Shown here: positions 7,722 to 23,473 of the stretch, one piece after another
How positions within the stretch are numbered: position 1 is the first letter of the stretch
Layout of the letters: each line of letters begins with the position of its first letter
DNA from: a virus
DNA length: 45,707 nucleotides
Virus record (IMG/VR): IMGVR_UViG_3300009149_000064
Span: 1-45,707 of that record
Strand: one strand, 5' to 3'
Position numbers and translations under genes: made by a program
Notes under the pieces: generated by a model
The model's database searches: none
Seen by the model: the letters and a program-made list of their open reading frames with translations, nothing else
Told to the model about the DNA's origin: nothing

Positions 7722-8104
7722 AAATTAAAACGGATTTTGTAACAAACAGTTCATCAACCGCATATATTATTTTAGATTCAGGCGCCAATCCAATGGATTT
7801 GGGAACTATCTTGTGGCAAGAAGGTCTTAGTAGTTCAGATATAGATTATGATGAAACTTTTACTAAAGACCAAATAAATGAATTTAAAACATTTCATAAT
7901 TATGGCATAGAGTTGGATTGGGTTGAAAATGTTATGGGTCCAAAGGTCGGTAGGTTAAGCGAATTGGGGTATAATACTGCCTTAACTCATCTGGGTGAAG
8001 GTCGTACCGTTCATTTTCTAGTAATAGAAAGAAGTTATGATATATACCAACTTGTTGATAAAGTACCTCAACTACAAATAATATATGTTGATGGAGATTA
8101 CTAA
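7718..8104 (+). CDS. Small protein with N-terminal TDFVTNSSS tag (copy 4)
   Basis: A 128-residue protein that begins M-K-I-K-T-D-F-V-T-N-S-S-S-T-A-Y-I-I, the fourth copy of the tag and separated by about 4.3 kb from the other three. The body is acidic and unlike the other copies. Its start overlaps the preceding stop (ATGA), and its stop shares one base with the start of the broken HNH gene. Recurrence at a second location, with different synonymous codons, shows that the tag is maintained on unrelated bodies. Function unknown. Confidence 0.75.
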   Translation: MKIKTDFVTNSSSTAYIILDSGANPMDLGTILWQEGLSSSDIDYDETFTKDQINEFKTFHNYGIELDWVENVMGPKVGRLSELGYNTALTHLGEGRTVHFLVIERSYDIYQLVDKVPQLQIIYVDGDY

Positions 8105-8657
8105 TGAGCAATCAATGTAAATGTGGTTGTGGTGAGATTGTTAATATTGGAAAAGAATATATTAGAGGCCATAATTCCCGTGGAAGGTTATATCGAAAAA
8201 ATTTATGTTATGAAAAAGAATATATTAAAAAAAGATTTGAGTCTAATTTTAAAATAGGTGAATTAGACTCATGTTGGGAATGGATGGGTTCAAAATCTGT
8301 CGAAGGTTTGGAGGGTTCTCCTGTTGTTGGTCTGGTAAACAAAAAATATATCCCGCCCACAGATTTGCATATATTTTATATGTTGATGAAAATATACCAG
8401 ATGAATTATTAGTTTGTCATAAATGTAATAATAAAACATGTGTAAATTCCAATCATCTATATGCTGGAACCAATCAAGACAATATGAATGATTTAAAAGA
8501 AGCTGGCACTTTAGCAGGTGAAAATAATCCAAATTATGGAGTTAAATGCTCAGATGAAAAAAGAAGAAAACTCAGCGAATCTAATTCTAAAGCTTGGGAA
8601 GATCCCAAAATTAGAGAAAAATATATCAAAGCATTTAATAAAAGGAAATCAATATGA
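8104..8657 (+). pseudogene. HNH endonuclease gene broken by a one-base deletion
   Basis: Two overlapping frames together encode one HNH endonuclease. The first frame gives a Cys-rich N-terminus and the HNH lead-in S-C-W-E-W-M-G-S-K. The second gives Y-P-A-H-R-F-A-Y, L-V-C-H-K-C, C-V-N-S-N-H-L and a basic C-terminal tail. The expected link, G-Y-G-x-F-S, is recovered if one base is restored near 8308 (GGTTTGGAGGGTTC would need one more base between GGT and GGA). The second frame alone, from 8271, lacks a plausible start. A sequencing error or programmed frameshift could also explain this. The second frame ends in an ATGA overlap with the radical SAM gene. Confidence 0.75.
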
Positions 8658-9736
8658 GCAAAATTAGAATTGTAAATTGGTTATTAACAAGACGTTGTAA
8701 TCTTAAATGTGGATATTGTGCTATAGTTAAAAATTATAAAAATAAACCCCCTGAATATCCAGATATGGATTACTATCATAAAAATGAGATGTCAACAGAA
8801 TATATAATTAATTGTTTAAAATTATTCAAGAAACATAATCCTGAAATCTTCAACATCTTTTATGGCGGCGAACCCATGTTACGGAAAGATCTACCAGAAA
8901 TAATAAATTTCTGTAATGAGAATGATATTCACTATACAATAATAAGCAATAATGTAACTGAAATTCAACCTTTAATAAAAACTCTTTTTGAAAAGACTAA
9001 CTATATCCAAGGGTTTACAAGTTCAGTTGATCCGATTTTCGATGTGAAGTTAGATAATAGAAAATCGCCTGCTATTAAAACTGAATTTGGTAGAAAATAT
9101 GATAAAAGCACTGGCTTGAAAAGCGTTTGGGGGATGGCACGATTAATAGAAATGAAGCATAATATTAAAGATGTTGTAGCTGAAATAACTGTAATGAAAG
9201 CTAGTATTCACAACCTATTTGCTTTAGTTCAACATCTTAGTGATGAAGGTATTAATAGTGATGTAACATTTATTGACATTGCTAAAAATCCATATTATGA
9301 TTTCTCAAATATCACAGATGAAAAACTTCTGGTCAGTCAAGAAGAAGCTAAAGATCAAATTGATATGCTTTTAAAAAGCGATTTGAATATCCATATGAAA
9401 GATAAATTGTTACCTAAAATTTACGAAGCATTACCATCAAATATGGATTGCGGTATTGAAAAGAATTTACATAATATTACAATTGATGCTGATGGTTCGA
9501 TTAGATTATGTCTTCGTATACGAGGTACTGTGACTCCAAGACATGTCATGGCGCACGAGATATTTACAAAAGATGATATTAATAAAATCTCGCCTTTTGC
9601 TCATATATGTATTACGACAGATAAAAAAATGTATTGTGAGTTATGTAATCATACTTGTCATTTAATGAGTCAAATTATTGATTCTGAAGAATTAGAAATA
9701 AAAGAGTTAGTTCATCTAGATATACGGGAGGAGTAA
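8654..9736 (+). CDS. Radical SAM protein with Cys-rich C-terminal (SPASM/twitch-like) domain
   Basis: This 360-residue protein has the canonical 4Fe-4S motif C-x3-C-x2-C at Cys15, Cys19 and Cys22, followed by the family G-G-E-P element (Y-G-G-E-P) in the SAM-binding core. The C-terminal third holds further cysteines: Cys266, Cys286, Cys319, and Cys328/Cys331/Cys335. This pattern suggests auxiliary iron-sulfur clusters of the SPASM or twitch type, common in enzymes that modify peptides. It is not QueE: it is much longer, with an ordinary CX3CX2C motif and extra cysteines. Its substrate is unknown. It lies a few hundred bases downstream of a tagged small protein, which may be a coincidence. Confidence 0.85.
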   Translation: MSKIRIVNWLLTRRCNLKCGYCAIVKNYKNKPPEYPDMDYYHKNEMSTEYIINCLKLFKKHNPEIFNIFYGGEPMLRKDLPEIINFCNENDIHYTIISNNVTEIQPLIKTLFEKTNYIQGFTSSVDPIFDVKLDNRKSPAIKTEFGRKYDKSTGLKSVWGMARLIEMKHNIKDVVAEITVMKASIHNLFALVQHLSDEGINSDVTFIDIAKNPYYDFSNITDEKLLVSQEEAKDQIDMLLKSDLNIHMKDKLLPKIYEALPSNMDCGIEKNLHNITIDADGSIRLCLRIRGTVTPRHVMAHEIFTKDDINKISPFAHICITTDKKMYCELCNHTCHLMSQIIDSEELEIKELVHLDIREE

Positions 9737-9739
9737 ATC

Positions 9740-10066
9740 ATGCCTGAAAAGAAAGATAAGACAGATTCTGATATTATAGTATCTGCTGTCATGTTCTGGA
9801 AAAAGATATATGATGAAAAAGATGTTATTATAAAGTTTGTAAAGAAGGATGGGTCAGATAGAACCATGAGATGCACTCTTGACTTTGATAAAATTCCAAG
9901 AAGAGATCATCCCAAAAAAGTCAACATCGAACAAATTTTGAAGTTGATTCAAAAAAATAAGATCATGCATGTTTATGACTTGGAAAAGAAGGGGTGGAGA
10001 TCTGTTCCGTTTGAACGAGTTGATTGGTTAGACACTAGAGACAGACGATACTATGTGAAAAAATAA
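9740..10066 (+). CDS. Conserved small phage protein, SH3-like (DUF2693-like)
   Basis: A 108-residue protein with the pattern K-D-G-S-x-R-T-M-R-C-T-L-D-F followed by Y-D-L-E-K-K-G-W-R-S-V-P-F-E-R-V. I recall this kind of small beta-barrel protein from T4-related phages (DUF2693-like), where no function is established. GGGAGGAG lies just upstream of the start. It opens the run of genes leading into the ubiquitin-like cluster. Confidence 0.6.
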   Translation: MPEKKDKTDSDIIVSAVMFWKKIYDEKDVIIKFVKKDGSDRTMRCTLDFDKIPRRDHPKKVNIEQILKLIQKNKIMHVYDLEKKGWRSVPFERVDWLDTRDRRYYVKK

Positions 10067-10078
10067 GGAGGGTAATTC

Positions 10079-10438
10079 GTGGGAATTTTAAAAGAATTGC
10101 TTAACGAACTCAAAGAAGATAATGACACAGATAAGATTAGACAAATATGTGATCAGCTTGCTGAAGAAGAAAAGAAAAACATACAAAATGATACGATCAT
10201 TCCAAAGGGACCTAACATATTCTTATCGTTAGAAGTTCCTGGAAGGATGCGAAATGAAATTGCATTTCTTACATTGGAGAGAGAAAGTGAGGATAAATAC
10301 CTCTTGGTTCTTTACACTATTATAAAAAGATCTGGTTCGAGAATGAAGAGGCAAAAGGTTTGGGAGGTTGATGATCACCGACCAGAGAAAATTTTAACTG
10401 AATATGCGAAACAATACAAATTTTTAAGAGGTGAATAA
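10079..10438 (+). CDS. Protein of unknown function (119 aa)
   Basis: The GTG start has GGAGGG about seven bases upstream. The N-terminal half is helical and charged (L-L-N-E-L-K-E-D-N). The C-terminal half looks like a beta-sheet with basic segments (I-I-K-R-S-G-S-R-M-K-R-Q-K-V-W). No domain was recognised. The stop overlaps the next start (TAATG), so it is translated together with the 873-residue protein that begins the Ubl cluster. Confidence 0.65.
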   Translation: MGILKELLNELKEDNDTDKIRQICDQLAEEEKKNIQNDTIIPKGPNIFLSLEVPGRMRNEIAFLTLERESEDKYLLVLYTIIKRSGSRMKRQKVWEVDDHRPEKILTEYAKQYKFLRGE

Positions 10439-13059
10439 TGATAGTGAATGAAATAAGAATTAATCAAGAATTTACCCAATTAACAGAATCAGTTTATGAA
10501 AAAGATTTAAAAAGTAAATCTAGTCCCCGAGTCAGAAAACACCATACGGACACCAAACATTATCTAAAAAAGATAAGCAGCAGATTCAATCAAACAAATT
10601 TTCTTATGCCTCCAAATTGTCGTTATATAGAAAGATTCGGAAACGGAGGGCATCTTGTTGTAGTTGAAGAACCACCTGCTTTAAGAACTATTAAAACTGA
10701 ATGGGGTGGATTGCAATCGGAATTTGAAAGATTAGAAAAAAAGGGAAAAACAAAAGAATGGGAAATTGACAAAAAAATATATTTTGGCCCTGGTGTAAGA
10801 TATCCTTATCGCTTCCATCTTGCTTTTCCCTATGTTATCTTCATCAAAGCATTTGATGAATTTAATAATCTTCTTGCAGGTCAGGTATATTTAAGAATTG
10901 CACGTCTAACTGGACTATCTGATTACCTTATGCGAATGCCCCTTATGAATATATCTGATACTCAATATATCTGTTATGGAGATAGAGCTGCTTCAAATCG
11001 ATCTTTAGATGCAGCTCTTGCAGATATTATCATGAAATTTTGGTCTGGATCTTTTAATGGAGATTATACATATAATCATTTTGCGTATAAGAACGTGCCC
11101 TATGTTAATACGCATATTGAGTGGCAATATCATTCTCAAACAGATCCGATGTTTATTTATAATGTTGATTGGATCCGTATGCCATATAATTTAGGAGAAG
11201 CTATTTCAAGATTTAAATGTGATCATAAGTTGATAACTTCGACTAATTTGGCTTATACAGAGTTGTCAAAAATATTTGCACAACCAATGGACACAGGTAA
11301 AAAAGAAAAAATTTCTGGTCTAAGAAAGGCGAAATATCAAAACTTATTCTATGATGTTGCGCAAGGTATGTATTTAGATGATCAGTTTTTTATTCATGTA
11401 GGAGATTCCATTAAATTAAAAAATGGAAAAATGGCATATGTTGATTCCTTTATAAGTTTTAGTGGATCATCAGACATAAAGTATATCCAATTTAAAACCG
11501 AAACGGGAATAAATCTATTATTAAAATATACCCCCGAAAGCAAAGCCGCAGCATATCTATTAGCAGCTTTCAAAAAGGAAAGGTACGCTGAAAGTGGAAC
11601 TCTCGCTAACGGTGTTGTAATCAAAGAAGGTAATATTGTTATAGTTGACACGCCTGGTACATCATCTAGACAACTGTATAAACATGTAAACTACATCCGA
11701 AAAACTAGAGATGGAATCACAGAAGCTAAACTTGGCAATGACTTCTATATTCTGGAGAATCTTAAAGGAAAACTTTTCAATGTAGATAAACCAGAGTTCG
11801 ATGGAATTAAATTAAAGAAAAACACTGACTATATTCTGATGACTACTACTACTAAAGTTGCTCGCCATAGAGGATATAAAGTAAAATACGATGGGCTTGA
11901 TGTTGACATTAACGGTTCTTTGGCATTCTCTTTCAAAGATGTATATCGTAAAGCAGGTCCAATCAAGATTAAATATGATCCAGTTGGAAAAACTCCAACT
12001 TCTATGTATAGATTGTTTGAAATGGATAGTGTTAGATCTATGGCTCCAATATTTAGAATTGGAAGGTCCCTTGTTACCGCAAGACAAGAAGGAGATTCAT
12101 CCGCAATATGTAAAACAGGTTATGCATGGGGAACACCAGAGGGAATCATTACTGAGTACAATGCTAGAATGAGAAAAGTACATATTGATCAAATAGTTAA
12201 ACATTGTCTATTCGATAACGGAAGTAGATTCCGTATTGAAAGTTTTGATCTAGATGTAGAATTTACTATTGGAGATAAAGTTGTAGTGGCTGATTGGGAA
12301 AATCCAATTAACACTCTTATTGTCAAAACAATTCAAGGATTTAAAGTCGACAAAGATTATGGTACATTAGACTTTATATTGGCAGATAAAAATGATAATC
12401 TGACCACTGTTAAATATATTGATACAGGCGATTCAAGTAATGTGATGATTGGAAAAATTAGGAAGATTGTTAATAAGTTTGGTAAGCTTTCAGCAGGAAT
12501 TAAAATTATTGCTAACGAAAGTTCTATATCAAACTTTCCAAAGAAAGATATCAATATCATTATTGGATTTATTACAGATACTGGGGGAGAAGAACCTCTG
12601 GTATTATGCTCCAATGGTTGCACATTATGGTATAGTGACGTAATTGACAATTTCAAGAAAGTTACTATGAAATCTCGAAATTGGAAAAAGCTCGCACATG
12701 CTCCGATTGATGTTCAAAAAATAAAGTTCCAACCAGGCGATATAATCATGAGTAATGGAGATTATAAAACTCGAAGCGGCTGGCTGGTATGGACATCTGG
12801 AGTGGGTATGCATAAGGTATCTAATTGTGTCAATCTACATAAATATCCAGACCATTATCATCTTGATGGATATATAAAGTCACAGTCATTCCTTGACTGT
12901 ATACCAAACCCAAGAATGCCAGCAAAAGCTATTAGCGATGTTGGAATTGTCAAAGGTTGGCCAAACTTCCATGGTCTATTTACATCAACCAATCTTGTAG
13001 AATTTAGTTTTATTAAAGACGAAAGGAGTATATTATATGTTTCCGATCCACGTAAATGA
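10438..13059 (+). CDS. Large protein with PRTRC protein B-like N-terminal region and beta-barrel repeats
   Basis: This 873-residue protein has an N-terminal region (about 50-260) with the order M-P-P-N-C, a hydrophobic strand, then P-L-M-N-I-S-D-T-x-Y-I-C-Y-G (Cys179) and F-W-S-G-S-F. This resembles the N-V-x-D-G-x-I-C-x-G ... F-x-S-x-F pattern I associate with PRTRC system protein B. The remaining 600 residues look like repeated small beta barrels, each opening with a hydrophobic G-D-x-I/V turn (I-G-D-K-V-V-V, Q-P-G-D-I-I-M and others), as in KOW/SH3-like domains. The next gene, a PRTRC A-like JAB protease, begins 23 bases before this stop. The long C-terminal extension is unusual for PRTRC B. 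The family call is recall-based and should be tested by profile search. Confidence 0.5.
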   Translation: MIVNEIRINQEFTQLTESVYEKDLKSKSSPRVRKHHTDTKHYLKKISSRFNQTNFLMPPNCRYIERFGNGGHLVVVEEPPALRTIKTEWGGLQSEFERLEKKGKTKEWEIDKKIYFGPGVRYPYRFHLAFPYVIFIKAFDEFNNLLAGQVYLRIARLTGLSDYLMRMPLMNISDTQYICYGDRAASNRSLDAALADIIMKFWSGSFNGDYTYNHFAYKNVPYVNTHIEWQYHSQTDPMFIYNVDWIRMPYNLGEAISRFKCDHKLITSTNLAYTELSKIFAQPMDTGKKEKISGLRKAKYQNLFYDVAQGMYLDDQFFIHVGDSIKLKNGKMAYVDSFISFSGSSDIKYIQFKTETGINLLLKYTPESKAAAYLLAAFKKERYAESGTLANGVVIKEGNIVIVDTPGTSSRQLYKHVNYIRKTRDGITEAKLGNDFYILENLKGKLFNVDKPEFDGIKLKKNTDYILMTTTTKVARHRGYKVKYDGLDVDINGSLAFSFKDVYRKAGPIKIKYDPVGKTPTSMYRLFEMDSVRSMAPIFRIGRSLVTARQEGDSSAICKTGYAWGTPEGIITEYNARMRKVHIDQIVKHCLFDNGSRFRIESFDLDVEFTIGDKVVVADWENPINTLIVKTIQGFKVDKDYGTLDFILADKNDNLTTVKYIDTGDSSNVMIGKIRKIVNKFGKLSAGIKIIANESSISNFPKKDINIIIGFITDTGGEEPLVLCSNGCTLWYSDVIDNFKKVTMKSRNWKKLAHAPIDVQKIKFQPGDIIMSNGDYKTRSGWLVWTSGVGMHKVSNCVNLHKYPDHYHLDGYIKSQSFLDCIPNPRMPAKAISDVGIVKGWPNFHGLFTSTNLVEFSFIKDERSILYVSDPRK

Positions 13060-14668
13060 TGGACAAAATGAATTACCCAAAGATGATATATTTTACGTTG
13101 TTGCAAAAGATGGAATATATATAAAGAAAACATTGGGAATAATGGACAGTTTAGTTCCTGTTAAAAATATCTCTACATTACAAGGGATTGAGTCAGCAGC
13201 TAGAATGAACATTAAGAAACTTCCTGGAGGGCAGTTTGCTAAAATTATAGCATTCTTCAAAGAAGTTCATAAAGAGCATAGATCAGAAGCTATTGTATTG
13301 CTATTTTATAATGAAGCAACTAGAGTTTATAGAGTTGTACCTCCAGCACAGAAAGTATCTAGTGCAGCATTAGATTATGATCGTGGATTGTCTTTAGAAG
13401 GGTGGACAATGATTGGTGATATTCATAGCCATGCTAGTATGTCTGCTTTTCACTCAGGAACAGATCATGATGATGAACTATCATTTGATGGTCTTCATAT
13501 AACAATTGGCAATCTCGGGGATGAACATGTAAGTATATCTGCGTCCATTGTTTCAAACGGTCATAGAGTTATTGTTCAACCAGAGGAATATGTAAGTCGT
13601 TTGATCAGAACTAAAGATATAGATGAAGTCAACACAAAACCAACTCGTCAAGTATATAAATACTGTCCAACGTCAAAGAAGATGGTTATTGATGAGGTTG
13701 CTTCATCTAGATTTGGAGTAACAACATATCGAACTCTTGATAAACGATTTACAGTTGCCGTTGGAAAGAAGCATTTTAAAGTCCCCAAAGGTTGGATGGA
13801 GATGGTTACATATCAAGCGTATTCATGGCATGGTCATGGTTATAGTTATGGTTATGGAACTCATCATCAGAAAAACCAACGCACCATTAATAAACATTGG
13901 GGACAAACGGGGAATCAGTGGGGATATAATTTTAACCCCGGTCTATGGGATAGAAATAAAACGAAAAAGGAGCTAGTTGAACAACAACTAAAATTATTAG
14001 AAGCTCCCACCGCGTCGGTTTCAGATGAAAATGATATTGACGATGTTATACCATGCACATCATGTAAATTTAAAGATTTTAAACTTCTTGTAGAAACGAA
14101 TGAAATAGAAGAAGAAGACTATTATAAGTGTGTGACATGTGATAGTGTATGGCTTGAGAGTGCGCTCATTGACGGTGAAAAATGTCCAATTTGTGTTACT
14201 GGAGATTTTCTATTTATTTATGATGAAGATGAAGATCAACAGTACCTAACAAATGAATATATCCCAGCCGATGAGCACGATCATCTATTTGTAAAAGATG
14301 ATCCTATTGAGGTAAAGTCCGATTTTGTAAAATGTGGTCAATGCGGTGAGACTTTTCATATGTATTCTGGAGAGTCAAAGTGCCCATTTTGTTTCGCAAT
14401 ACTAGGACCCAAACCACCTCCGCCTGGTGGTGTGAAAGAAAGTGTCCAAGAAACAGATATGGAAACCCAGATGAAGTCGGACTCAGGAGAGTTTTTAGGA
14501 GAGGATACAGAAGCTATACGGAAAGCAGCAAAAGAAGAGATTGATAATATTCTTGTTGAGAAAATCCCAGATCCTGCTGAAACACATCACCCTCTCCCCG
14601 AAACTTCATCGCCTGCATTTACTACAGTGCGGGAGATGTTTAATCGAGTATTTAACAAAAGAGAGTAA
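13037..14668 (+). CDS. JAB/JAMM metalloprotease (PRTRC A-like) with C-terminal zinc ribbons
   Basis: This 543-residue protein contains an exact JAMM site: Glu84, then H-S-H with His130/His132, seven residues, S140-x-x-D143. JAMM enzymes cut isopeptide bonds or mature ubiquitin-like proteins. Residues about 255-305 are rich in His, Tyr, Gly and Trp and probably disordered. Residues about 338-455 hold C-x-x-C pairs (C-T-S-C, C-V-T-C, C-P-I-C, C-G-Q-C, C-P-F-C) consistent with two zinc-ribbon or RING-like modules, beyond what PRTRC A normally carries. GAAAGGAG lies 8 bases before the start. E1 and Ubl genes follow, supporting a role as Ubl hydrolase. Confidence 0.85.
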   Translation: MFPIHVNDGQNELPKDDIFYVVAKDGIYIKKTLGIMDSLVPVKNISTLQGIESAARMNIKKLPGGQFAKIIAFFKEVHKEHRSEAIVLLFYNEATRVYRVVPPAQKVSSAALDYDRGLSLEGWTMIGDIHSHASMSAFHSGTDHDDELSFDGLHITIGNLGDEHVSISASIVSNGHRVIVQPEEYVSRLIRTKDIDEVNTKPTRQVYKYCPTSKKMVIDEVASSRFGVTTYRTLDKRFTVAVGKKHFKVPKGWMEMVTYQAYSWHGHGYSYGYGTHHQKNQRTINKHWGQTGNQWGYNFNPGLWDRNKTKKELVEQQLKLLEAPTASVSDENDIDDVIPCTSCKFKDFKLLVETNEIEEEDYYKCVTCDSVWLESALIDGEKCPICVTGDFLFIYDEDEDQQYLTNEYIPADEHDHLFVKDDPIEVKSDFVKCGQCGETFHMYSGESKCPFCFAILGPKPPPPGGVKESVQETDMETQMKSDSGEFLGEDTEAIRKAAKEEIDNILVEKIPDPAETHHPLPETSSPAFTTVREMFNRVFNKRE

Positions 14669-14674
14669 ATTGTT

Positions 14675-15358
14675 ATGATAAATGTTGAAATTGTTGTTAT
14701 TGGTCTTGGAGGAATTGGTTCTATACTGGTAGAAAGATTATGCCGATTCCTCAACTATTCAAACGATCTGAAAGCTGCTGTTATTCTTGTAGATGGAGAT
14801 TCTTATGAAACTAAAAACTATGAAAGACAAGAATTTGCTCAGATCGGCAAAAAGGCGGAAGTTAAAGAGATAGAACTTATGACAAAATACTCTCGTATAG
14901 AATTTGATGCCTTTCCTGCCTTCATAAATGAAACAAACACAGCTGAAATTATTAAGGAAGGCAATGTTGTATTTCTATGTGTAGATAATCACAAATCCAG
15001 AATGATTGTATCGAATTACTGTAAAAATTTAAATAATGTTACTTTAATATCTGGCGGGAATGAATTTACTGATGGGAATGTACAGACATATGTAAGACGA
15101 GATGGAAAAGATCTTACTCCCGATCTGTGCAAATATCACCCAGAAATTGCAAATCCTGATGATAAGTTACCTGAGGAAATGAGTTGCGAAGAATTAGCTG
15201 AATCTGATCCTCAACTGTATTTCACTAATCTAGGAGCTGCAACACTAATGTGTTGGGCATTTTATAACTCAGTTATAAAAGCGAATTACGAACGTTCGGA
15301 AACTTACTTTGACATTCTAACTATGAATACAAATTCAAAAATTAGAGTTGTCAGGTAA
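14675..15358 (+). CDS. E1-like ThiF/MoeB-family adenylyltransferase (first copy)
   Basis: This 227-residue protein has the E1/ThiF Rossmann core. The nucleotide loop is G10-x-G-x-x-G15, acidic residues Asp40 and Asp42 end strand 2, E-T-K-N-Y-E-R-Q (45-52) is the adenylation Arg-Gln motif, and V-D-N-x-K-S-R (103-109) contains the expected Asp104. Proteins of this family adenylate the C-terminal glycine of a Ubl, some then forming a thioester. It is short for a full E1 and resembles PRTRC ThiF proteins. It starts six bases after the JAB stop and precedes the Ubl gene, the standard order for Ubl activation genes. Confidence 0.87.
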   Translation: MINVEIVVIGLGGIGSILVERLCRFLNYSNDLKAAVILVDGDSYETKNYERQEFAQIGKKAEVKEIELMTKYSRIEFDAFPAFINETNTAEIIKEGNVVFLCVDNHKSRMIVSNYCKNLNNVTLISGGNEFTDGNVQTYVRRDGKDLTPDLCKYHPEIANPDDKLPEEMSCEELAESDPQLYFTNLGAATLMCWAFYNSVIKANYERSETYFDILTMNTNSKIRVVR

Positions 15359-15389
15359 AAAAATTCATTTCAAAGGAGAAAAAGTAATT

Positions 15390-15869
15390 ATGGCTAGTAA
15401 AAAATTCACGCGTGCAGAACTCGATGGTATGACAGCACTAAGATTGAAAGAAATGTGTGTTTACGAATTGGACCTTCCGGGTCTGACCAAGAAACCCAAA
15501 GAAACTGTCATTCAAGCGATTCTGGCAAAACATGGAACACCTGCTTCTCGGGCGGCTGTTGCACCGAAAGCGAAAACAATAGCTCCACTAAGTGGGCTTG
15601 AGTTCTCGGGACATAGTGTAATGACCAAACCTGGAGCAGCTTTTGGTCAACGAACATCCACCACTATTAATGTTTCATGTGGTGCTTCTTCTGGTAACTT
15701 CCCAGTTGCCGGTCGAACTGTAAAACAAGTTGGAGAATTTCTCCGCGAAGTTCTAAATGTAGATCAACTATCTACCGGTCTTGTAAATGGTAGAGAAGTT
15801 GGTGCCGATTATATCCTCAAAGAAGGGGATACTCTGGAATTCCTGAAACCAGCAGGAAAAAAGGGATAA
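15390..15869 (+). CDS. Ubiquitin-like beta-grasp protein with SAP-like N-terminus (PRTRC C-like)
   Basis: The ATG at 15390 is preferred over one 42 bases upstream because AAAGGAG lies at 15372-15378. The 159-residue product has an N-terminal SAP/HeH-like helical unit (about 8-46, with L-K-E-M-C ... L-T-K-K-P-K-E-T-V-I), a proline/alanine-rich linker, and a C-terminal beta-grasp domain (about 90-159) of the ThiS/MoaD/PRTRC C type: F-P-V-A-G-R-T-V, L-V-N-G-R-E-V, L-K-E-G-D-T-L-E-F. It ends P-A-G-K-K-G, a single exposed C-terminal glycine suited to adenylation without trimming. A transcription terminator follows at 15881. The SAP-like unit suggests DNA or protein binding. Confidence 0.78.
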   Translation: MASKKFTRAELDGMTALRLKEMCVYELDLPGLTKKPKETVIQAILAKHGTPASRAAVAPKAKTIAPLSGLEFSGHSVMTKPGAAFGQRTSTTINVSCGASSGNFPVAGRTVKQVGEFLREVLNVDQLSTGLVNGREVGADYILKEGDTLEFLKPAGKKG

Positions 15870-15880
15870 TCAATCTCGAA

Positions 15881-15915
15881 AAAATGGGGGACCTCATTTG
15901 GGGTTCCCCCATTTT
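15881..15915 (+). terminator. Strong stem-loop terminator between the Ubl gene and second E1 gene
   Basis: A perfect 10-bp stem pairs AAAATGGGGG (15881-15890) with CCCCCATTTT (15906-15915) and extends inward by about three more pairs with a bulge. A short T run is part of the 3' arm. The downstream T tract is short (TTTTAAAAAG), so termination may be partial. It lies 11 bases after the Ubl stop. Confidence 0.75.
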
Positions 15916-15943
15916 AAAAAGAACCGAAAGGAGAAAATATGAC

Positions 15944-16804
15944 GTGGTATATAAAACAATAACTGTAATTGGATTAGGAACCCTTGGAGGGTTCGTAACT
16001 GATGCTATTTCAAATCTAGAAGAAGTTGAAAAACTCATAGTTATAGACCACGATATAGTTGAAACAAAGAATCTTAAAAACTCTATATACAGGCAAATAG
16101 ATGTCGGCTTATCGAAAACTGAAGCATTAAAAGATATAATTTTATCAAAGAATCTGAATAAAAATGTGGATATAAAAAGCGAAAAATACATTGAAGGAGA
16201 AATGACACTACCAAAAAGTGACCTAGTTCTTGATTGTAGAGATATTACTTACGATCGGAATACTGAAATTGATTCAAGATTGTATATTTCGTCTAGATAT
16301 CTAATAGTAGATTGTCGTAAAAATGTTACATACGCAAATAGAAGAGTTGGCAAATATATTGTTGAACTAACCAAAGATGATTTAAGATATGCAGCATCAA
16401 TTATATCAATGACTATACACAGTGGTACGGTTACATCTTTATTACGAAGTCGATCTGTACAAAAATATGAACTAGATTATGTAAAGCATATTGATAATTA
16501 TAAATGTGATATAGTATATGAGGATCTGGTCGATGAAGAAAAATTTGTAAATCTTCCTGACAAGATTCTTCCAATTCTTGAATTAAATAAAGAGTCAGAG
16601 TTAAATGTATTTTTAGGAAGCAAAGTTCTTCCAATAACTGAAAGAATAATACCAAAAAATACATTACAAACAAGTGGGGATGTAATTTTAAATTTAGCAT
16701 CCGTGGCTACTAGTCAATGTGACTTTAATAATTTTGTAGTTTCATTATTTCAGGAAAACAACCAGGTGTTTGTTGAATTGATTCCGGAAACAGGGGCAGC
16801 ATAA
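15944..16804 (+). CDS. E1-like ThiF-family protein (second copy)
   Basis: The long frame could be opened at an ATG at 15884, but that ATG lies inside the terminator stem. GTG at 15944 is better: AAAGGAG at 15927-15933 is 10 bases upstream, and the protein then starts M-V-Y-K-T-I-T-V-I-G, aligning with the first E1 copy. The 286-residue product has G10-x-G-x-x-G15, Asp35/Asp37, E-T-K-N-L (40-44), R50-Q51 and L-D-C-R-D (96-100). Unlike the first copy, Cys98 follows the acidic residue in the strand that contacts the adenylate. The C-terminal part (about 180-286) has no recognised domain. The stop overlaps the E2-like gene (TAATG). Confidence 0.82.
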   Translation: MVYKTITVIGLGTLGGFVTDAISNLEEVEKLIVIDHDIVETKNLKNSIYRQIDVGLSKTEALKDIILSKNLNKNVDIKSEKYIEGEMTLPKSDLVLDCRDITYDRNTEIDSRLYISSRYLIVDCRKNVTYANRRVGKYIVELTKDDLRYAASIISMTIHSGTVTSLLRSRSVQKYELDYVKHIDNYKCDIVYEDLVDEEKFVNLPDKILPILELNKESELNVFLGSKVLPITERIIPKNTLQTSGDVILNLASVATSQCDFNNFVVSLFQENNQVFVELIPETGAA

Positions 16805-17142
16805 TGGTTATAAAAGATATTTTTATTCCAGGAGTATTTGTCCCAAATAAACTAATTTTCAAAAATGAAATTCATGAGATTTCAGATTTAAGAAAAAAGT
16901 TTGTGATCAGAGGATACACCATTAAAACTGTGAATAATAAAATTGATATGGTTATTATAAAAAATCCACATCCAAATTCAGATCCAAACACAGGAGAATT
17001 TTGTATTCCTCAATCCCTAAGAAAACATGAGGTAAATGAGAAAACTAAAAAGATAATTGAAATTATGATATGTTGTTTTGATTTAGATGACTGTTACTTT
17101 ACACCTTGGGATGAAATAAAATATAGAAAGCAAGAGGTATAA
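16804..17142 (+). CDS. Candidate E2-like (UBC-fold) protein
   Basis: This 112-residue protein contains P-H-P-N (55-58) and then T-G-E-F-C-I-P (63-69), with Cys67. This matches the H-P-N ... G-x-I-C-L arrangement around the active-site cysteine of ubiquitin-conjugating enzymes. Predicted beta strands precede it, and a helix plus P-W-D-E-I follow, in an E2-like order. It is short against the usual 140-150 residues, so the N-terminal helix may be reduced. The start overlaps the second E1 stop (TAATG). A structural protein with a chance motif is possible, but the motif and neighbours together favour E2. Catalysis is not shown. Confidence 0.5.
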   Translation: MVIKDIFIPGVFVPNKLIFKNEIHEISDLRKKFVIRGYTIKTVNNKIDMVIIKNPHPNSDPNTGEFCIPQSLRKHEVNEKTKKIIEIMICCFDLDDCYFTPWDEIKYRKQEV

Positions 17143-17144
17143 AA

Positions 17145-17360
17145 ATGACAGAAGAAAATGAAAAAATGACAAAAGAAAAACTTCAACAAAACTTTGAAGA
17201 AGCCATTGATGATCTGGGTGATGCAACAAAAAAAGTAGCAGGAAAAGTATTCAATGGAATGGTTGCACGAACCGTTGAAGTGTTTTCTGAGTTGTTGGAT
17301 AAACAAAAGGTTATCATAAAAGATAAAATAAAAAGGGGGAAGGATGGCAAAAAAGAATAA
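17145..17360 (+). CDS. Small helical protein, unknown (71 aa)
   Basis: A Lys/Glu-rich, probably all-helical 71-residue protein that begins three bases after the E2-like stop. An amphipathic central helix (D-A-T-K-K-V-A-G-K-V-F) is the main visible feature. It overlaps the next gene by 17 bases. It could be an accessory subunit of the Ubl or RNA polymerase gene groups; nothing in the sequence decides between them. Confidence 0.6.
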   Translation: MTEENEKMTKEKLQQNFEEAIDDLGDATKKVAGKVFNGMVARTVEVFSELLDKQKVIIKDKIKRGKDGKKE

Positions 17361-17571
17361 CCCCGATGAAACAGAAGTTACATATTCAATAGAGGAAATA
17401 ATTGAAAATATTGTAGAAGAAAAAATGGGCAAACTTGTAAAAAATGACATTAAAGCACTTGCAAGAGAACTGATGCCTCATCTTGATCAAATAATTGCAA
17501 ACAAAATCAAAGAACATTTTTATCAAATAGGAAATTTCCTAGCAGAAAAATTTAAAGAATCAGGAGAATAA
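17344..17571 (+). CDS. Small helical protein, unknown (75 aa)
   Basis: A 75-residue acidic-helical protein overlapping the previous small gene by 17 bases, with GGGGGAAGG directly upstream of the ATG. Predicted amphipathic helices (S-I-E-E-I-I-E-N-I-V-E-E-K and later) suggest a coiled coil or small partner protein. It ends five bases before the RNA polymerase beta-prime gene, so co-expression with that subunit is likely. I do not recognise the family. Confidence 0.6.
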   Translation: MAKKNNPDETEVTYSIEEIIENIVEEKMGKLVKNDIKALARELMPHLDQIIANKIKEHFYQIGNFLAEKFKESGE

Positions 17572-17576
17572 AACAT

Positions 17577-20285
17577 ATGCCAAAGATATTGGATTATAAC
17601 TCATTTTGTGAAAATCTAGACGAAGTGACGTCTCTAAAAACATTTGGAAAAAAGAAGTTCCACCCAGACGGGTTATTCTCTGAACAGATTTTTGGGCCAG
17701 TCAAAAATTATACATGTCAATGTGGGAGATACTATGGAATCTCACAGACAGGAGATAACTGTGATACTTGTAAAGTAGATATTGTAAATAGCGATGCAAG
17801 ACGAAAACGATTTGCAAAAATTACAATTCCAGTGTCCGTTGTTAACCCAGTGTTCTATGATCTCATTGTCGAACTTGGCGGAAAAAATTTAAAGAAAGCT
17901 ATAGATACTCTTATGCGAAATGAGAAAAGCGTCTTATATAAATCCCAGGATGACTATATGGTTACAGTAAATCCAGAAGAGACTGTTCCAAAAGGTGCTG
18001 AAGTTTGGGAACGTGCTGACGCTATTCGTGAATTGGTTACGGGTATTGCTCAAGACATGATCGAAGAAGGTGTTGAAGGGTGGGATCTTGTTATAGAAAA
18101 GATTGACAATTTATTAATTAATCAAATAATTGTCCTTCCGCCAGACTTAAGACCAACATCAAAAAGTTCTGGAAAAAGTAAGCAATTAATGGATAAAATA
18201 AATAGATATTATATTCAAATACTAACGAAGAAAGAAATAATGAGAGAAACCATCATTGATATTTATAAAGATAAAGCTCTCTACTATACTTATTTCAAAC
18301 AACTTCAAAAAGATGTTAATGAGTTATACACTAGGATACTAGAAAAGATAGCAAAGAAAGAAGGATTAATCAGAGGAAATATTTTGGGGAAAAGAATTGA
18401 TTTTTCTGGACGTGCAGTTATTACGCCAGATCCGACATTGGCATTAGATGAGTGTAAATTACCATACCTTATGGTATTAGAAATTTATAAACTTCCAATC
18501 GCTAAAAGAATTTTAGAGCTTGGTAAATTTAAATTATTAAATCGTGCAATTGACTTTGTAGATGATTGTATTGATAGCCAATCACCAGTGTTATACAATG
18601 TATGTACTGATATTACAGCTGATAAATACTGCATACTAAACAGACAACCATCTCTCCATAAATTAAGCATGCTTGCGTTTAAGATAAAGATAACATTAGA
18701 TCAGGTTATTAAAATACATCCATTATCTTGTCCTCCATTTAATGCAGATTTTGATGGAGATCAAATGGCTGTATATATACCAATTACTGAGGAATGTGAA
18801 AAAGAAGTCGAAGAAAGACTTTCAATTAAACAAAATCTTAGCAGTCCTGCAAATGAAAGTTTAACAACAACACCATCCCAAGATATTATTTTGGGAATTT
18901 ATTATTTAACATCACCAGAATTTGCTGGAGAAAAAGAGAAAGAAAAAGTTAAAGGTAAGTTGATTCATTGGGGGCAAGCAGAGTTTAATAAACAATTGCC
19001 TGAGGACTATCCGCTAATTACAGAAATCGTTCAGGAGAAGGTTCTTCTAAGAATTCTAAATGATATTAAAAATAGATATTCAAGTGATATAGTGATGAAC
19101 GTATTAGATAAGATAAAACTAATAGGTTTTAAATATGCAACTTTATTTGGTTGCACAATGTCTTTAAAAGATTGTTATGTACCAGAAGCAGCAAAACTTA
19201 AAGAAGCATTATATGCTCCAGGAAGTACAAGAGAACAATTAGAAGCTCTCTCTGATAAATCATTAATTGAAGAAATAAAAAAGAAATTCAAATATTCCTA
19301 TATGATTGAATCAGGGGCGAGAGGAAGTTGGGATCAAGTCAAACAGATGATTCTGACAAGAGGTTTTATCTCAAACTTTGATGGAGAAATATTACCATAC
19401 CCAATTAAAAACTCATTGATTGATGGGTTAACTGAAGAAGAGTTTTTCTTTTCTACATATGGTTGCCGTAAGGGGCTTCTTGATGTTGCTTTGAATACTG
19501 GAACATCTGGATATCTATCAAGAAAACTAATTTTCACATGCGCAAACTTACAAATTGATGAAGATCTAGAAGATTGTGGTACTAAAGATCTTCTAGAAGT
19601 TCATGTTACTACAAAACGGAAAGCGAGAATGTTGATTAACAAGTACCATCTTGTTAACGATGAACTCCAACAAATTACATTGGAAAATTATAGAGAGTTT
19701 ATTGACAAAGATGTTTTTATTCGGAGTCCAATTCTTTGTAAAAATCCAAAGATCTGTCATATATGTTATGGCAATCTGTATAAAAATCTTAATAGTCGTT
19801 TCATTGGAATTCTTGCAGCACAAACCCTTGGAGAAAGAGGTACCCAACTTGTATTGAGAACTTTTCATACATCTGGTTCAGCTGTCATTAAGGGTGAGGA
19901 TCATCAAGATGAATCAATGAAACAACGAGATATTATTGGGGATCTTGCTTCAGTTTCAACATTATTACATAAATTTAAGGGAAAAACATATACAAATTTA
20001 GTTTCAGAATTATTCGATGTGTATGATAAAGATATATACCATGTTCACTTTGAATGTGTGGTAGCACAACTAATGTGGAAAAACCATACAAAGTGGAGAT
20101 TATTGCCGGACAGAGAAAAAGTTTCTCCTGACTTCTATTCTATTCAGAGCGTGCCAAATCAAGAGAGCTGGATTTTAGCTATGGCATTTTCAAATCCGAA
20201 AAGAGCAATCTTGCAAGGTATCTTGTATGAAGGTCGCTATTCAGGGGTAATAGATAAAATTCTAAAAGGAGAAAAAATAAGATGA
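17577..20285 (+). CDS. RNA polymerase beta-prime subunit, single-chain, compact
   Basis: This 902-residue protein is a complete but compact beta-prime homolog. The N-terminal zinc site is C-x-C (47, 49) and C-x-x-C (62, 65). G-K-R-I-D-F-S-G-R-A-V precedes the catalytic loop N-A-D-F-D-G-D-Q-M at 389-397 (Asp391/393/395 bind magnesium). The bridge helix/trigger loop region carries S-G-A-R-G-S and a G-C-R-K-G-L segment. The second zinc site is Cys667, 721, 727, 730, close to bacterial spacing. A-A-Q-T-L-G-E-R-G-T-Q and G-D-L-A-S-V mark the C-terminal regions, which are shortened against the roughly 1400 residues of E. coli beta-prime. Its stop overlaps the next gene (ATGA). No alpha or sigma homolog is recognised in the window. 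Confidence 0.95.
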   Translation: MPKILDYNSFCENLDEVTSLKTFGKKKFHPDGLFSEQIFGPVKNYTCQCGRYYGISQTGDNCDTCKVDIVNSDARRKRFAKITIPVSVVNPVFYDLIVELGGKNLKKAIDTLMRNEKSVLYKSQDDYMVTVNPEETVPKGAEVWERADAIRELVTGIAQDMIEEGVEGWDLVIEKIDNLLINQIIVLPPDLRPTSKSSGKSKQLMDKINRYYIQILTKKEIMRETIIDIYKDKALYYTYFKQLQKDVNELYTRILEKIAKKEGLIRGNILGKRIDFSGRAVITPDPTLALDECKLPYLMVLEIYKLPIAKRILELGKFKLLNRAIDFVDDCIDSQSPVLYNVCTDITADKYCILNRQPSLHKLSMLAFKIKITLDQVIKIHPLSCPPFNADFDGDQMAVYIPITEECEKEVEERLSIKQNLSSPANESLTTTPSQDIILGIYYLTSPEFAGEKEKEKVKGKLIHWGQAEFNKQLPEDYPLITEIVQEKVLLRILNDIKNRYSSDIVMNVLDKIKLIGFKYATLFGCTMSLKDCYVPEAAKLKEALYAPGSTREQLEALSDKSLIEEIKKKFKYSYMIESGARGSWDQVKQMILTRGFISNFDGEILPYPIKNSLIDGLTEEEFFFSTYGCRKGLLDVALNTGTSGYLSRKLIFTCANLQIDEDLEDCGTKDLLEVHVTTKRKARMLINKYHLVNDELQQITLENYREFIDKDVFIRSPILCKNPKICHICYGNLYKNLNSRFIGILAAQTLGERGTQLVLRTFHTSGSAVIKGEDHQDESMKQRDIIGDLASVSTLLHKFKGKTYTNLVSELFDVYDKDIYHVHFECVVAQLMWKNHTKWRLLPDREKVSPDFYSIQSVPNQESWILAMAFSNPKRAILQGILYEGRYSGVIDKILKGEKIR

Positions 20286-20476: not shown

Positions 20477-23473
20477 TTGAACATAATTAATCCTACTTTT
20501 AAAATTCAAGATGAAGAGTTTAATCTCTTCACACTAAGACAGAAAGACTTTGAACAGATTTTACCACTAGTTCGTGAAATAGTTAAACCAGTTGAAGAAA
20601 TAGGATTTGATATTGTTGAAGTAGACTTGAAAGATTCTCGTTTCTCATCAGGAGAATTGTCTAAAACAATAAAACAAACCTTAGTTATTAAGTTTCAAAA
20701 AGGAAGCTCAAATATTGATTTGAGCCTTTTTATTCCAAAGTTAGTCGATCAAAATTACATAATGATAAATGGTAAGAAAAAGATACCTCTATTTCAACTG
20801 TTTGATATTCCTGTAGTAACAAGGGGAGAAAGTATTAAAATCAGAACCAACGTCGCCACAATAATGGTGTACAAAGATCGAGAAGAACCATCAATCAGAA
20901 TAAGTTTCTTGGGTAAAAAAGTTCCCCTTTCCCTTATCTTATGTGCTTACTATAGTATGGAAGAGGTTAAACAAAAGTTTGAACTTGATCTTCCCATTGA
21001 TGAAAATTCAGATGTGTTTTATGAGTTGTTGCGTTATGATTTAAAAACTACTCTGGATGAATCAATAGGTCATACTCAAGATGATTTTATTGTTGAACTT
21101 GGTCGAACATACTCAAAGTACAATGCAAAATCAAAAGGCGAAGATATTTTATACGCTATTGATTTAATTCCTAAAGTTGATGTGCTTACAGCAAAGTTCT
21201 TTCAAACAGGATCTCTGTTAGAAGAAATCCTTTATGCTATTCAGACAGTAGACATTGATGATACTTTGTTTACAAATAAAAGAGTTAGATGTTTTGAATA
21301 TATAGTTGCAGCAAAAATTTCAAAGATCATTTTTGATTTGTGTTTTGCTAACAGAACAGCTCGTCAACCAAAGTTCAATATCAACTCAACTCAAATATTA
21401 TCAGAGTGTAATGTGTCAGATATTATACAATTTGATTTCTCAATAAATCCAATTGAAGAATTGACAAAACTATCAAGAATCAGTCTATTAGGTCCAGGTG
21501 GATTCAAGAGAGAAAATATTCCAAAACATTTAAGAGATATTTGTCCAACAATGTTTGGTCGTATTTGTCCTGTTGATACTCCAGATAGAGATAATTGTGG
21601 AGTATTACAAAATCTTATTCCGAATGTTCATTTGGATCAAGATTTAAAATTCACGGAAGAATATTGCGAAAAGCAACCAATATCAATACCAGTTTCTATG
21701 ACTCCATTTTTGAAGCATGATGACCAAACTAGATTACAAATGGCGTCATCACAAATGCGTCAATCAATTATGTTAAAAGACTTTGACTCACCCCTAATAG
21801 GTTCGGGATGTGAAGGTCTATATACAGATTATACACAATTTGTCAAACGAGCAAAACATAATGGGGAAGTAGTTCATATTGATAAAGAATATTTGATAGT
21901 CATGTACAGCAATGGCGAACCAGATATTTTCAACATTGCTTATCGAAAAATTTACGTTGAGCATATGGATTTTATGAATCTCTATGTAAAACCTGGCGAT
22001 AAATTTAAAGCAGGAGATATCTTAGCAGAAAGTAATTTTTGTAAAGATGGAAAAGTGAATATTGGTAAAAACCTTCTTACTGGTGTCATGGTATATTATG
22101 GAAACAACTATGAGGATGGTATCGTCATTTCAGACAGATTGGTTAATGACGATATATTTACATCTGTACATTATAAAGATTTGTCATTTACATTAACTCC
22201 AGATAAAGTTCTTTTATCTTTAGATGATAATATTTATAAACCATTACCAGATGAATTAGAAACTACCAAAGCAGGGAATCCATATGCCATTATTAAAAAG
22301 TTAAATTCAGAAGATCTATATTCAGTATTTTCTAATCCTGTTAGACTGGATGCTAAAAAGAATTTTATAATTTCAGAAGTTAATCTATATGCAAATGCAT
22401 GGAATGAAGAAATTCCAGAGTTTAAACAATGGATAGAAAAGCGTCTTGTTGAGCAGCTAGACAAACAAACATACCTACAAAAAATTATTAAAAATACTTT
22501 TGATAAAGAACATGCTACACGGTTAATTAGAGAAAACGGTCTTGATAAATTTTCTCTTGATAAAAAATATAAATACAAACGTGAACGTATTAACGGTATA
22601 CAGATTGAGATGTATGGAGTTCATTTCCGAAAGATAAAGGTCGGAGATAAAATAGCAAACAGACATGGAAACAAAGGTGTTATTTCACGAATTGTTCCAC
22701 ATGAGAAAATGCCACAGACAGAAGATGGAAGACATCTTGATATTTGTATTAACCCACTTGGTATTATATCTCGAATGAATATTGGACAATTATATGAAAT
22801 GCATTTAGCAATGTCAGTTCAAGATTTAAAATTCGCTTTAATGAAAATGTTAGAAAAAAATAAAACTCAAAAAGAAATGAGAAAATACTTGCTTGGATAT
22901 ATTAAAATTATTGACAAGACAACTGATCAATGGTACTATACTCAATTCGTTGAACAACTGCCAAAAGAGATTGATCTTGACTTTATTAAAGAGTTAACAA
23001 TAATCCAACCTCCATTTGAATCATGTAGATTAGCAGAGGTTGAAGCAGCGCTAACATATACAAACATAAAATTCAAGCAGAAAATATATGATCCTTTATC
23101 AAAAGTCCATATCATAAATGAAATTGCAACAGGGTTAATCTACTTTTTCAGAATGGTTCATATTGCAGAGGAAAAACTAGCAGCTCGTGGTATTGGAGCA
23201 TATGCTAGACGTACATTACAACCATTGGGAGGAAGGAAGAATAAAGGTGGACAGCGATGTGGTGAAATGGAGTCTGCATGTCTAATAGGACATGATGCCT
23301 CACATAACTTATTCGAGTTCTTCACAACCAAATCAGACTGTATTGATTTAAAAAATAATTACATACGGAACTTTATTGAACCAAGCTTTACTGATTATTT
23401 AAGCGATATAGTTCCTGAGTCAGTTAAACTTCTAAACTCATATCTAACTGTTATAGGAGTTGATCAGAAATGA
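20477..23473 (+). CDS. RNA polymerase beta subunit, single-chain, compact
   Basis: This 998-residue protein begins with TTG behind GGGAGGAA. It contains L-S-R-I-S-L-L-G-P-G-G-F and G-R-I-C-P-V-D-T-P (rifampicin-region homology), Y-G-N-N-Y-E-D-G-I-V-I-S, and V-G-D-K-I-A-N-R-H-G-N-K-G near 722-735 with the universally conserved lysines. The C-terminal P-L-G-G-R and G-G-Q-R-C-G-E-M-E (about 924-932) interact with beta-prime in bacterial enzymes. It is shorter than E. coli beta (about 1340) but continuous, unlike the split subunits of phiKZ-type phages. The next gene overlaps by ATGA. Confidence 0.95.
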   Translation: MNIINPTFKIQDEEFNLFTLRQKDFEQILPLVREIVKPVEEIGFDIVEVDLKDSRFSSGELSKTIKQTLVIKFQKGSSNIDLSLFIPKLVDQNYIMINGKKKIPLFQLFDIPVVTRGESIKIRTNVATIMVYKDREEPSIRISFLGKKVPLSLILCAYYSMEEVKQKFELDLPIDENSDVFYELLRYDLKTTLDESIGHTQDDFIVELGRTYSKYNAKSKGEDILYAIDLIPKVDVLTAKFFQTGSLLEEILYAIQTVDIDDTLFTNKRVRCFEYIVAAKISKIIFDLCFANRTARQPKFNINSTQILSECNVSDIIQFDFSINPIEELTKLSRISLLGPGGFKRENIPKHLRDICPTMFGRICPVDTPDRDNCGVLQNLIPNVHLDQDLKFTEEYCEKQPISIPVSMTPFLKHDDQTRLQMASSQMRQSIMLKDFDSPLIGSGCEGLYTDYTQFVKRAKHNGEVVHIDKEYLIVMYSNGEPDIFNIAYRKIYVEHMDFMNLYVKPGDKFKAGDILAESNFCKDGKVNIGKNLLTGVMVYYGNNYEDGIVISDRLVNDDIFTSVHYKDLSFTLTPDKVLLSLDDNIYKPLPDELETTKAGNPYAIIKKLNSEDLYSVFSNPVRLDAKKNFIISEVNLYANAWNEEIPEFKQWIEKRLVEQLDKQTYLQKIIKNTFDKEHATRLIRENGLDKFSLDKKYKYKRERINGIQIEMYGVHFRKIKVGDKIANRHGNKGVISRIVPHEKMPQTEDGRHLDICINPLGIISRMNIGQLYEMHLAMSVQDLKFALMKMLEKNKTQKEMRKYLLGYIKIIDKTTDQWYYTQFVEQLPKEIDLDFIKELTIIQPPFESCRLAEVEAALTYTNIKFKQKIYDPLSKVHIINEIATGLIYFFRMVHIAEEKLAARGIGAYARRTLQPLGGRKNKGGQRCGEMESACLIGHDASHNLFEFFTTKSDCIDLKNNYIRNFIEPSFTDYLSDIVPESVKLLNSYLTVIGVDQK

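Follow-up and report, generated by a model that had tools for sequence, protein, structure and literature searches.

Among described systems, Iyer et al. 2006 (PMC1779556) reported a bacterial operon class, 6d, composed of a ubiquitin-like protein (Ubl), a JAB protease, an E1 and an E2, and also described phage TAPI-JAB pairs. The PRTRC clusters (NCBIfam TIGR03735-TIGR03737) probably correspond to class 6d, given that taxa and components match, an equation made in the present analysis. No paper linking PRTRC with the term 'ubiquitin-like' was found in the open-access literature, and a description elsewhere is possible; no tested function of PRTRC clusters was found in that literature either. 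The Bil and Bub systems contain Ubl, E1, E2 and JAB components. The subject of this analysis is a cluster of six adjacent genes in a 45.7-kb IMG/VR virus record (IMGVR_UViG_3300009149_000064, analysed over its full 45,707 nucleotides and referred to here as the window), which probably encodes a ubiquitin-like conjugation system and constitutes a core trait of the phage clade that carries it. The window is taken to be a fragment of a myovirus because it carries terminase, baseplate wedge, T4-type baseplate and SbcC-like genes. The genes of the cluster lie on the + strand in the order B, JAB, E1a, Ubl, E1b and a small HPN...C protein, followed by RNA polymerase beta' and beta:

10438..13059, + strand: B, 873 aa, with an N-terminal part of ~310 aa that is Prok-E2_D/PRTRC_B-like, followed by a further ~560 aa; candidate transfer residue Cys179.
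13037..14668, + strand: JAB/JAMM metalloprotease that may process the Ubl and remove it from conjugates; C-terminal CxxC zinc-ribbon-type region.
14675..15358, + strand: E1a, canonical ThiF/PRTRC_ThiF-like activating enzyme; candidate thioester residue Cys171.
15390..15869, + strand: Ubl, with an N-terminal Rho_N domain, a linker and a C-terminal beta-grasp, ending in the tail LEFLKPAGKKG.
15881..15915, + strand: GC-rich, terminator-like hairpin directly 3' of the Ubl gene.
15944..16804, + strand: E1b, with an E1-like core (~residues 1-180) lacking the ATP-phosphate Arg and a C-terminal domain of ~80 aa (bb-a-bb) ending ELIPETGAA.
16804..17142, + strand: small E2-like protein, with HPN(56-58)-x8-Cys67.

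Relatives were gathered as locus sets seeded with E2 (10 loci), E1a (54), RNA polymerase beta' (80), E1b (42) and Ubl (68), which overlap and consist of uncultured contigs of up to 312 kb. The main sample comprises the 60 RNA polymerase beta' loci having >8 kb of upstream sequence, and it favours close relatives, since it was ranked by similarity to the beta' of the window. The complete six-gene set is present in 54/60 of these loci in one gene order, which argues against a chance association, and it is a near-universal core of this large-phage clade. Across 20-30% identity the catalytic signatures are preserved, namely HxHx7SxxD of the JAMM protease, GxGGxG, NxxRQ and Cys171 of E1a, N171-x7-C179 of B and HPN-x8-C67 of the small protein. 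The original prediction, made from the letters of the window, had claimed six adjacent genes directly before RNA polymerase genes; all six are present where it placed them, on the + strand, and full-length beta' and beta genes follow them, as they do in relatives. A more distant Ubl-JAB-E1a set was observed in locus L273 (5992-9512), where no RNA polymerase beta' gene was detected within the 12 kb examined.

The cluster shares with plasmid PRTRC clusters a Prok-E2_D-like B, a JAB (A) and a ThiF in B-A-ThiF order, as well as a Ubl ending in GxKG (plasmid PRTRC_C ends GAKG or GTKG), and these family matches and this order support the earlier proposal of a phage-borne conjugation cluster with a PRTRC-like core. 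It differs in the length of B, which is only ~240 aa in plasmids, in the Rho_N domain of the Ubl and its position after ThiF, in the extra E1b and HPN...C E2, and in adjoining RNA polymerase. No match to PRTRC ParB, E or F was found among the neighbouring genes scanned. The window proteins score below the PRTRC equivalog cut-offs (JAB 46.9 bits against 101.8 for PRTRC_A; E1a 37.8 bits against 144.75 for PRTRC_ThiF), and are thus homologous to the PRTRC proteins but outside the equivalogs. Among cultured phages, Vibrio phage D69, Salmonella phage Arash and, in part, Bacillus phage KLEB27-3 share B-like, JAB and ThiF neighbours, but their sets are simpler, and homologues of E1b or the small E2 were detected neither in these nor in any other cultured phage. 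By tblastn, no cultured-phage relative of E2, E1b, B or Ubl was significant, and pattern-seeded searches of GTDB contigs recovered no cellular relative of E2 or E1a.

Other known systems resemble the cluster in part. The Cap2/Cap3 proteins of cyclic oligonucleotide-based antiphage signalling systems (CBASS) share its E1-E2-JAB logic, and the protein conjugated in CBASS ends in Gly or Ala (PMC10097602), a feature that can be compared with the terminal Ala of the E1b tail. In type II CBASS, however, E1 and E2 are fused in Cap2, whereas they are separate genes here, accompanied by what appears to be a true beta-grasp Ubl and encoded by a virus rather than a host; no CD-NTase was seen among the genes scanned near the cluster, which places it outside type II CBASS. 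From Bil and Bub the cluster is set apart, by description and not by sequence, in being carried by a phage and in possessing a PRTRC-type core, two E1s and two E2-like proteins. The tail clusters of phages lambda and T1 also encode a Ubl with a JAB protease (TAPI and TAPK; Iyer et al. 2006), but are described without an E1 or E2, whereas the full set is present here, away from tail genes.

Protein B carries its candidate transfer residue, Cys179, in the motif PLMNISDTQYIC-YG. The window copy of B has no Pfam match and no PRTRC_B match, but Prok-E2_D is matched by 8/9 B homologues (best 3.1e-6), and hhalign relates B to KLEB27-3 gp196 (1.3e-5), Arash gp248 (3.3e-5) and plasmid PRTRC_B (7.9e-5), the last of which is itself Prok-E2_D (3.9e-54). 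In the hhalign alignment N171-x7-C179 of B falls on the N-x7-C motif of PRTRC_B, and both residues are present in 46/46 homologues. These matches indicate that the PRTRC-B-like protein is itself E2-like, giving the cluster two E2 candidates. The B gene is duplicated in tandem in L059 (4318-8759) and L068 (3961-8695). Short extra open reading frames (ORFs) lie just 5' of B in L050 (6129-6491) and L064 (6220-6546) and weakly match the Ubl model, probably via its Rho_N part.

The JAB gene product matches Prok-JAB (1.5e-6) and PRTRC_A (2.3e-12), and Prok-JAB is matched by 30/30 homologues. The perfect JAMM catalytic pattern that had been claimed, E...HxHx7SxxD, was confirmed, with E84, H130, H132, S140 and D143 invariant in the 30 homologues alongside C340 and C343. 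A TFIIS-like zinc ribbon on the JAB was considered on the basis of a single NCBIfam TFS match (1.7e-4) and rejected; the 30 homologues scatter across many zinc-ribbon Pfam types, and a specific link to RNA polymerase through this region was therefore dropped. Both proteins proposed as E1/ThiF enzymes match ThiF, E1a at 4.8e-20 and E1b at 4.9e-11, and not just unrelated Rossmann enzymes. E1a possesses the ATP-site features GxGGxG, NxxRQ, K60 and D104 in addition to the conserved Cys171, the key residues being kept in 47-48/48 sequences, and aligns with plasmid PRTRC_ThiF by hhalign at 3e-9. E1b, by contrast, hardly matches PRTRC_ThiF (E 0.05) and so belongs to a different E1 lineage.

Comparison with homologues places the start of the Ubl at ATG 15390 rather than TTG 15348. 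Among 45 homologues Rho_N is matched by 36/45, TGS by 31/45 and ThiS by 22/45; in the window copy the TGS and ThiS matches fall below gathering cut-offs. No Prok_Ub match was found by hmmscan, but hhalign aligns the Ubl with PRTRC_C/Prok_Ub (E 8.3e-5) up to the GxKG tail, and together with the TGS and ThiS matches this alignment points to the beta-grasp fold that the original prediction had assigned. The GxKG tail is found in 58/60 distinct Ubls, of which 38 stop at the motif and 20 continue with extra residues, a single Cys in 15 cases; the other two deviate. In locus L192, on a 207-kb contig, two full-length Ubls are encoded head to tail, with GRKG-ADET at the junction; because the two copies differ in DNA, the tandem is not a collapsed assembly. 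The extended Ubls and the two-Ubl precursor of L192 imply cleavage after GxKG, for which the adjacent JAB would be the simplest candidate.

Multiple Ubl units are also predicted in a cultured phage: in Vibrio phage D69 a 263-aa protein annotated as hypothetical (L013, 8624-9415) comprises three PRTRC_C-like repeats in tandem, every one of which ends in TGTKG, and a final 5-aa extension, INYSK; by these features it is a poly-Ubl. Its gene lies upstream of those for the PRTRC-like B, JAB and ThiF. Salmonella phage Arash has a 66-aa ORF that is missing from its annotation (L012, 107-307) and is in a different frame from annotated gp251 (102-320); this ORF ends RRTGTKG, resembles the D69 units and is probably the real Ubl gene. 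An apparent Ubl-E1b fusion in L068 was set aside, as the Ubl tail is absent and the fusion may be a deletion.

The small protein had been proposed as an E2-like candidate, and this assignment is borne out in its motif more than in its fold. In E2 enzymes HPN precedes the catalytic Cys by 8-10 residues, a pattern that HPN-x8-C67 of the window follows. None of the 44 aligned homologues, some of which carry insertions, departs from HPN and C67; the divergent L064 has HAN...C in place of HPN...C. No significant sequence-family match was obtained, a single homologue of the 44 matching UQ_con at 0.006, and a profile match to a solved E2 aligns exactly at HPN...C but is not significant (E 0.3). The AlphaFold2 (AF2) model, with a predicted local distance difference test score (pLDDT) of 93.8, consists of a beta-meander plus helices, and with it Foldseek ranks E2 enzymes first against PDB as well as against BFVD (prob 0.75 and 0.72), as weak matches with E >0.1. 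The small E2 showed no direct homology with PRTRC_B. At the E2 position of L059 (12098-12709) and L068 (11965-12609) are proteins of ~210 aa with H-x-N ... E-(L/I)-C-I patterns, which are possibly very diverged E2-like proteins.

E1b starts at GTG 15944 rather than ATG 15884, as judged from homologues. Its AF2 model (pLDDT 88.5) matches UBA5, ThiF, MoeB and Cap2 in the PDB over the core, to which MccB is also related. The Arg of the E1 ATP site (NxxRQ) is kept in 0/45 E1b sequences, the remaining fold being that of an E1. The C-terminal domain (~205-286) is modelled as helix, two strands, helix, two strands and a tail, a topology compatible with a small beta-grasp. A search for sequence homology between this domain and the Ubl gave no signal above column shuffles, and none was found in the PDB, so that the AF2 topology alone favours a beta-grasp-like domain. 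The tail is TGAA or TGGA in most sequences and the final residue is Ala in 44/45; CBASS offers a precedent for Ubl-like conjugation through a C-terminal Ala (PMC10097602).

The six genes appear to form two separable modules, a PRTRC-like B-JAB-E1a-Ubl module and an E1b-E2 module, a structure that, as read from sequence, is new here. The hairpin at 15881..15915 separates them; its 86-nt stretch has a dG of -27.6 kcal/mol (z -3.2), and although a simple terminator scan did not pick it up, a comparable hairpin lies just past the Ubl stop in most homologues, where the Ubl-E1b gap ranges from 15 to 1,074 bases. L134 holds E1b and E2 only, L142 holds B-JAB-E1a-Ubl only, and L151 carries distant E1b- and E2-like genes. 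In a mirror-tree analysis of residual distances, after RNA polymerase, radical SAM and WYL_2 distances were regressed out, the correlations were 0.60 for E1b-E2, 0.45 for B-JAB and 0.33 for Ubl-B, but -0.03 for Ubl-E1b and -0.04 for Ubl-E2. Adjacency alone does not produce the signal, given that the adjacent pairs JAB-E1a (0.11) and E1a-Ubl (0.06) score low. The original prediction thus stands as regards a PRTRC-like Ubl cluster, but had missed B as a second E2 candidate, the missing Arg and the C-terminal domain of E1b, the two modules, the near-universality across the clade, and the precursor or tandem Ubls.

A conjugation pathway can be proposed from these features. The JAB would cut the Ubl precursor after GxKG where it is C-terminally extended or tandem, and would later remove the tag from targets. 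E1a would adenylate the terminal Gly of the Ubl and then hold the Ubl as a thioester on Cys171, from which the tag would move to Cys179 of B and then to the target, which the long C-terminal part of B may select. E1b and the small HPN...C protein would form a second, partly independent E1-E2 arm. Purely by inference, the likeliest targets are phage transcription or virion proteins. The constant RNA polymerase neighbourhood and the Rho_N domain of the Ubl suggest transcription-related targets, and RNA polymerase or transcription factors are tentatively put forward in that role. A fuller version, in which two cascades run in parallel, one PRTRC-like with the Rho_N-Ubl and the other passing a ubiquitin-sized modifier borne by E1b (ETGAA) to the HPN...C E2, both directed at phage transcription or virion proteins, is more speculative and rather unlikely. 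Virion localisation from an Arash proteome was not used, as it lists 116 proteins with implausible coverages.

Domain identities, conserved catalytic residues, module structure and gene order are supported, but several points weigh against the proposed conjugation system. Adenylation, thioesters, transfer and the order of transfer are steps that we infer, the system being known from sequence and models alone, and the tie to RNA polymerase is one of gene position alone. The fold match of the small protein to E2s is weak (best E 0.14, template modelling score <0.45) and its model lacks the usual N-terminal E2 helix, while E1b may not adenylate, since the ATP-contacting Arg is absent. The residual correlation between Ubl and E1a is near zero, perhaps because E1a hardly varies, and mirror-tree correlations can reflect shared recombination. 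L134, L142 and L151 are all contig fragments, so an absent module may lie elsewhere.

Four other explanations were weighed against conjugation. It is possible, but doubtful, that E1b-E2 is an MccB-like pair modifying a peptide or small molecule, or that E1b is a pseudo-E1 heterodimerising with E1a for the same Ubl. Besides UBA5, E1b also resembles MccB and PaaA, and its lack of the canonical Arg is shared by the non-catalytic halves of heterodimeric E1s; however, E1b-E2 is present on a 92-kb contig without a detected E1a or Ubl, E1b shows ~0 residual co-variation with either E1a or Ubl, and the HPN...C motif of its partner is typical of E2s. Sulfur-carrier or cofactor chemistry is improbable: the Ubl, like ThiS, MoaD or CysO, would be thiocarboxylated by E1a and the JAMM protease would free the product, with no protein tagged. 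Mec+ releases product from CysO-Cys, and the terminal Gly-Cys encoded by 15/60 Ubls recalls this CysO-cysteine adduct; the E1s and Ubl also match the ThiF, MoeB and ThiS families. Against this, two E2-like proteins with a conserved Cys would be needless for sulfur transfer, head-to-tail Ubls and non-Cys extensions suit protein-tag processing better, and no rhodanese, cysteine synthase or ThiG/MoaE-like gene was found among the nearby genes examined, several window ORFs being unscanned.

The agreement of the B-JAB-ThiF families and their order with plasmid PRTRC clusters would also fit an accessory that maintains or segregates genomes, the role assumed for the plasmid sets, reused by phages with tagging incidental. 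This is the least probable of the alternatives, given that no PRTRC ParB, E or F turned up in the cluster, that E1b and the small E2 were not found in the plasmid clusters examined, and that placement with RNA polymerase genes is constant. Counter-defence, in which host proteins such as the host polymerase or immune proteins would be tagged or untagged, is unlikely, if slightly less so than sulfur chemistry. Bacterial Ubl systems work in anti-phage defence (PMC10097602) and a phage set could oppose or mimic them, but the cluster is near-universal in the clade, colinear and slowly evolving, unlike typical patchy anti-defence genes.

Prokaryotic ubiquitin-like systems are otherwise known mainly from host metabolism, host anti-phage defence or plasmid functions, the Ubl/JAB pairs of tail assembly aside. 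A near-universal complete set with precursor and tandem tags suggests reversible protein tagging within the viruses' own programme, and the virus itself seems dependent on a ubiquitin-style tagging machine. Simpler PRTRC-like sets are found in phages D69 and Arash, which are in culture, so the question is open to direct testing. The E1b-E2 pair, being separable from the other genes, may represent a minimal E1-E2 system that could help to trace how ubiquitin cascades arose. A jumbo-phage review mentions neither JAB nor ThiF. The mReC phages (Weinheimer and Aylward 2020, PMC7481178), whose main text makes no mention of ubiquitin, ThiF or PRTRC, are large tailed phages from IMG/VR with full-length RNA polymerase beta/beta' and baseplate wedge genes, and the present phages are like them in each of these respects. 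Of the mReC markers, beta and beta' are present, TerL is matched by PHROG only, and neither PF07068 (major capsid protein, MCP) nor PF03237 (TerL) was found in the ten window proteins scanned, the window being a fragment.

The genes flanking the cluster are likewise conserved:

8654..10438, + strand: upstream block of radical SAM, WYL_2 and o119 genes, conserved in relatives.
8654-9736, + strand: radical SAM gene (Radical_SAM 2.3e-10), present in 53/60 loci.
9740-10066, + strand: WYL_2 gene (WYL_2 4e-8).
10079-10438, + strand: o119, a conserved upstream gene.
17577..20285, + strand: RNA polymerase beta', with tblastn matches to annotated phage and cellular beta'; directly 3' of the cluster in relatives.
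20477..23473, + strand: RNA polymerase beta, conserved and adjoining beta' in related loci.

The radical SAM, WYL_2 and o119 genes are kept 5' of the cluster in most relatives and might be part of one functional unit with it. Between the E2 gene and beta', many relatives contain two short conserved ORFs, o71 and o75 (17145-17571 in the window). Further upstream, at 8104-8657, two overlapping ORFs in different frames resemble a single HNH-type endonuclease gene interrupted by a frameshift or by a sequence error.

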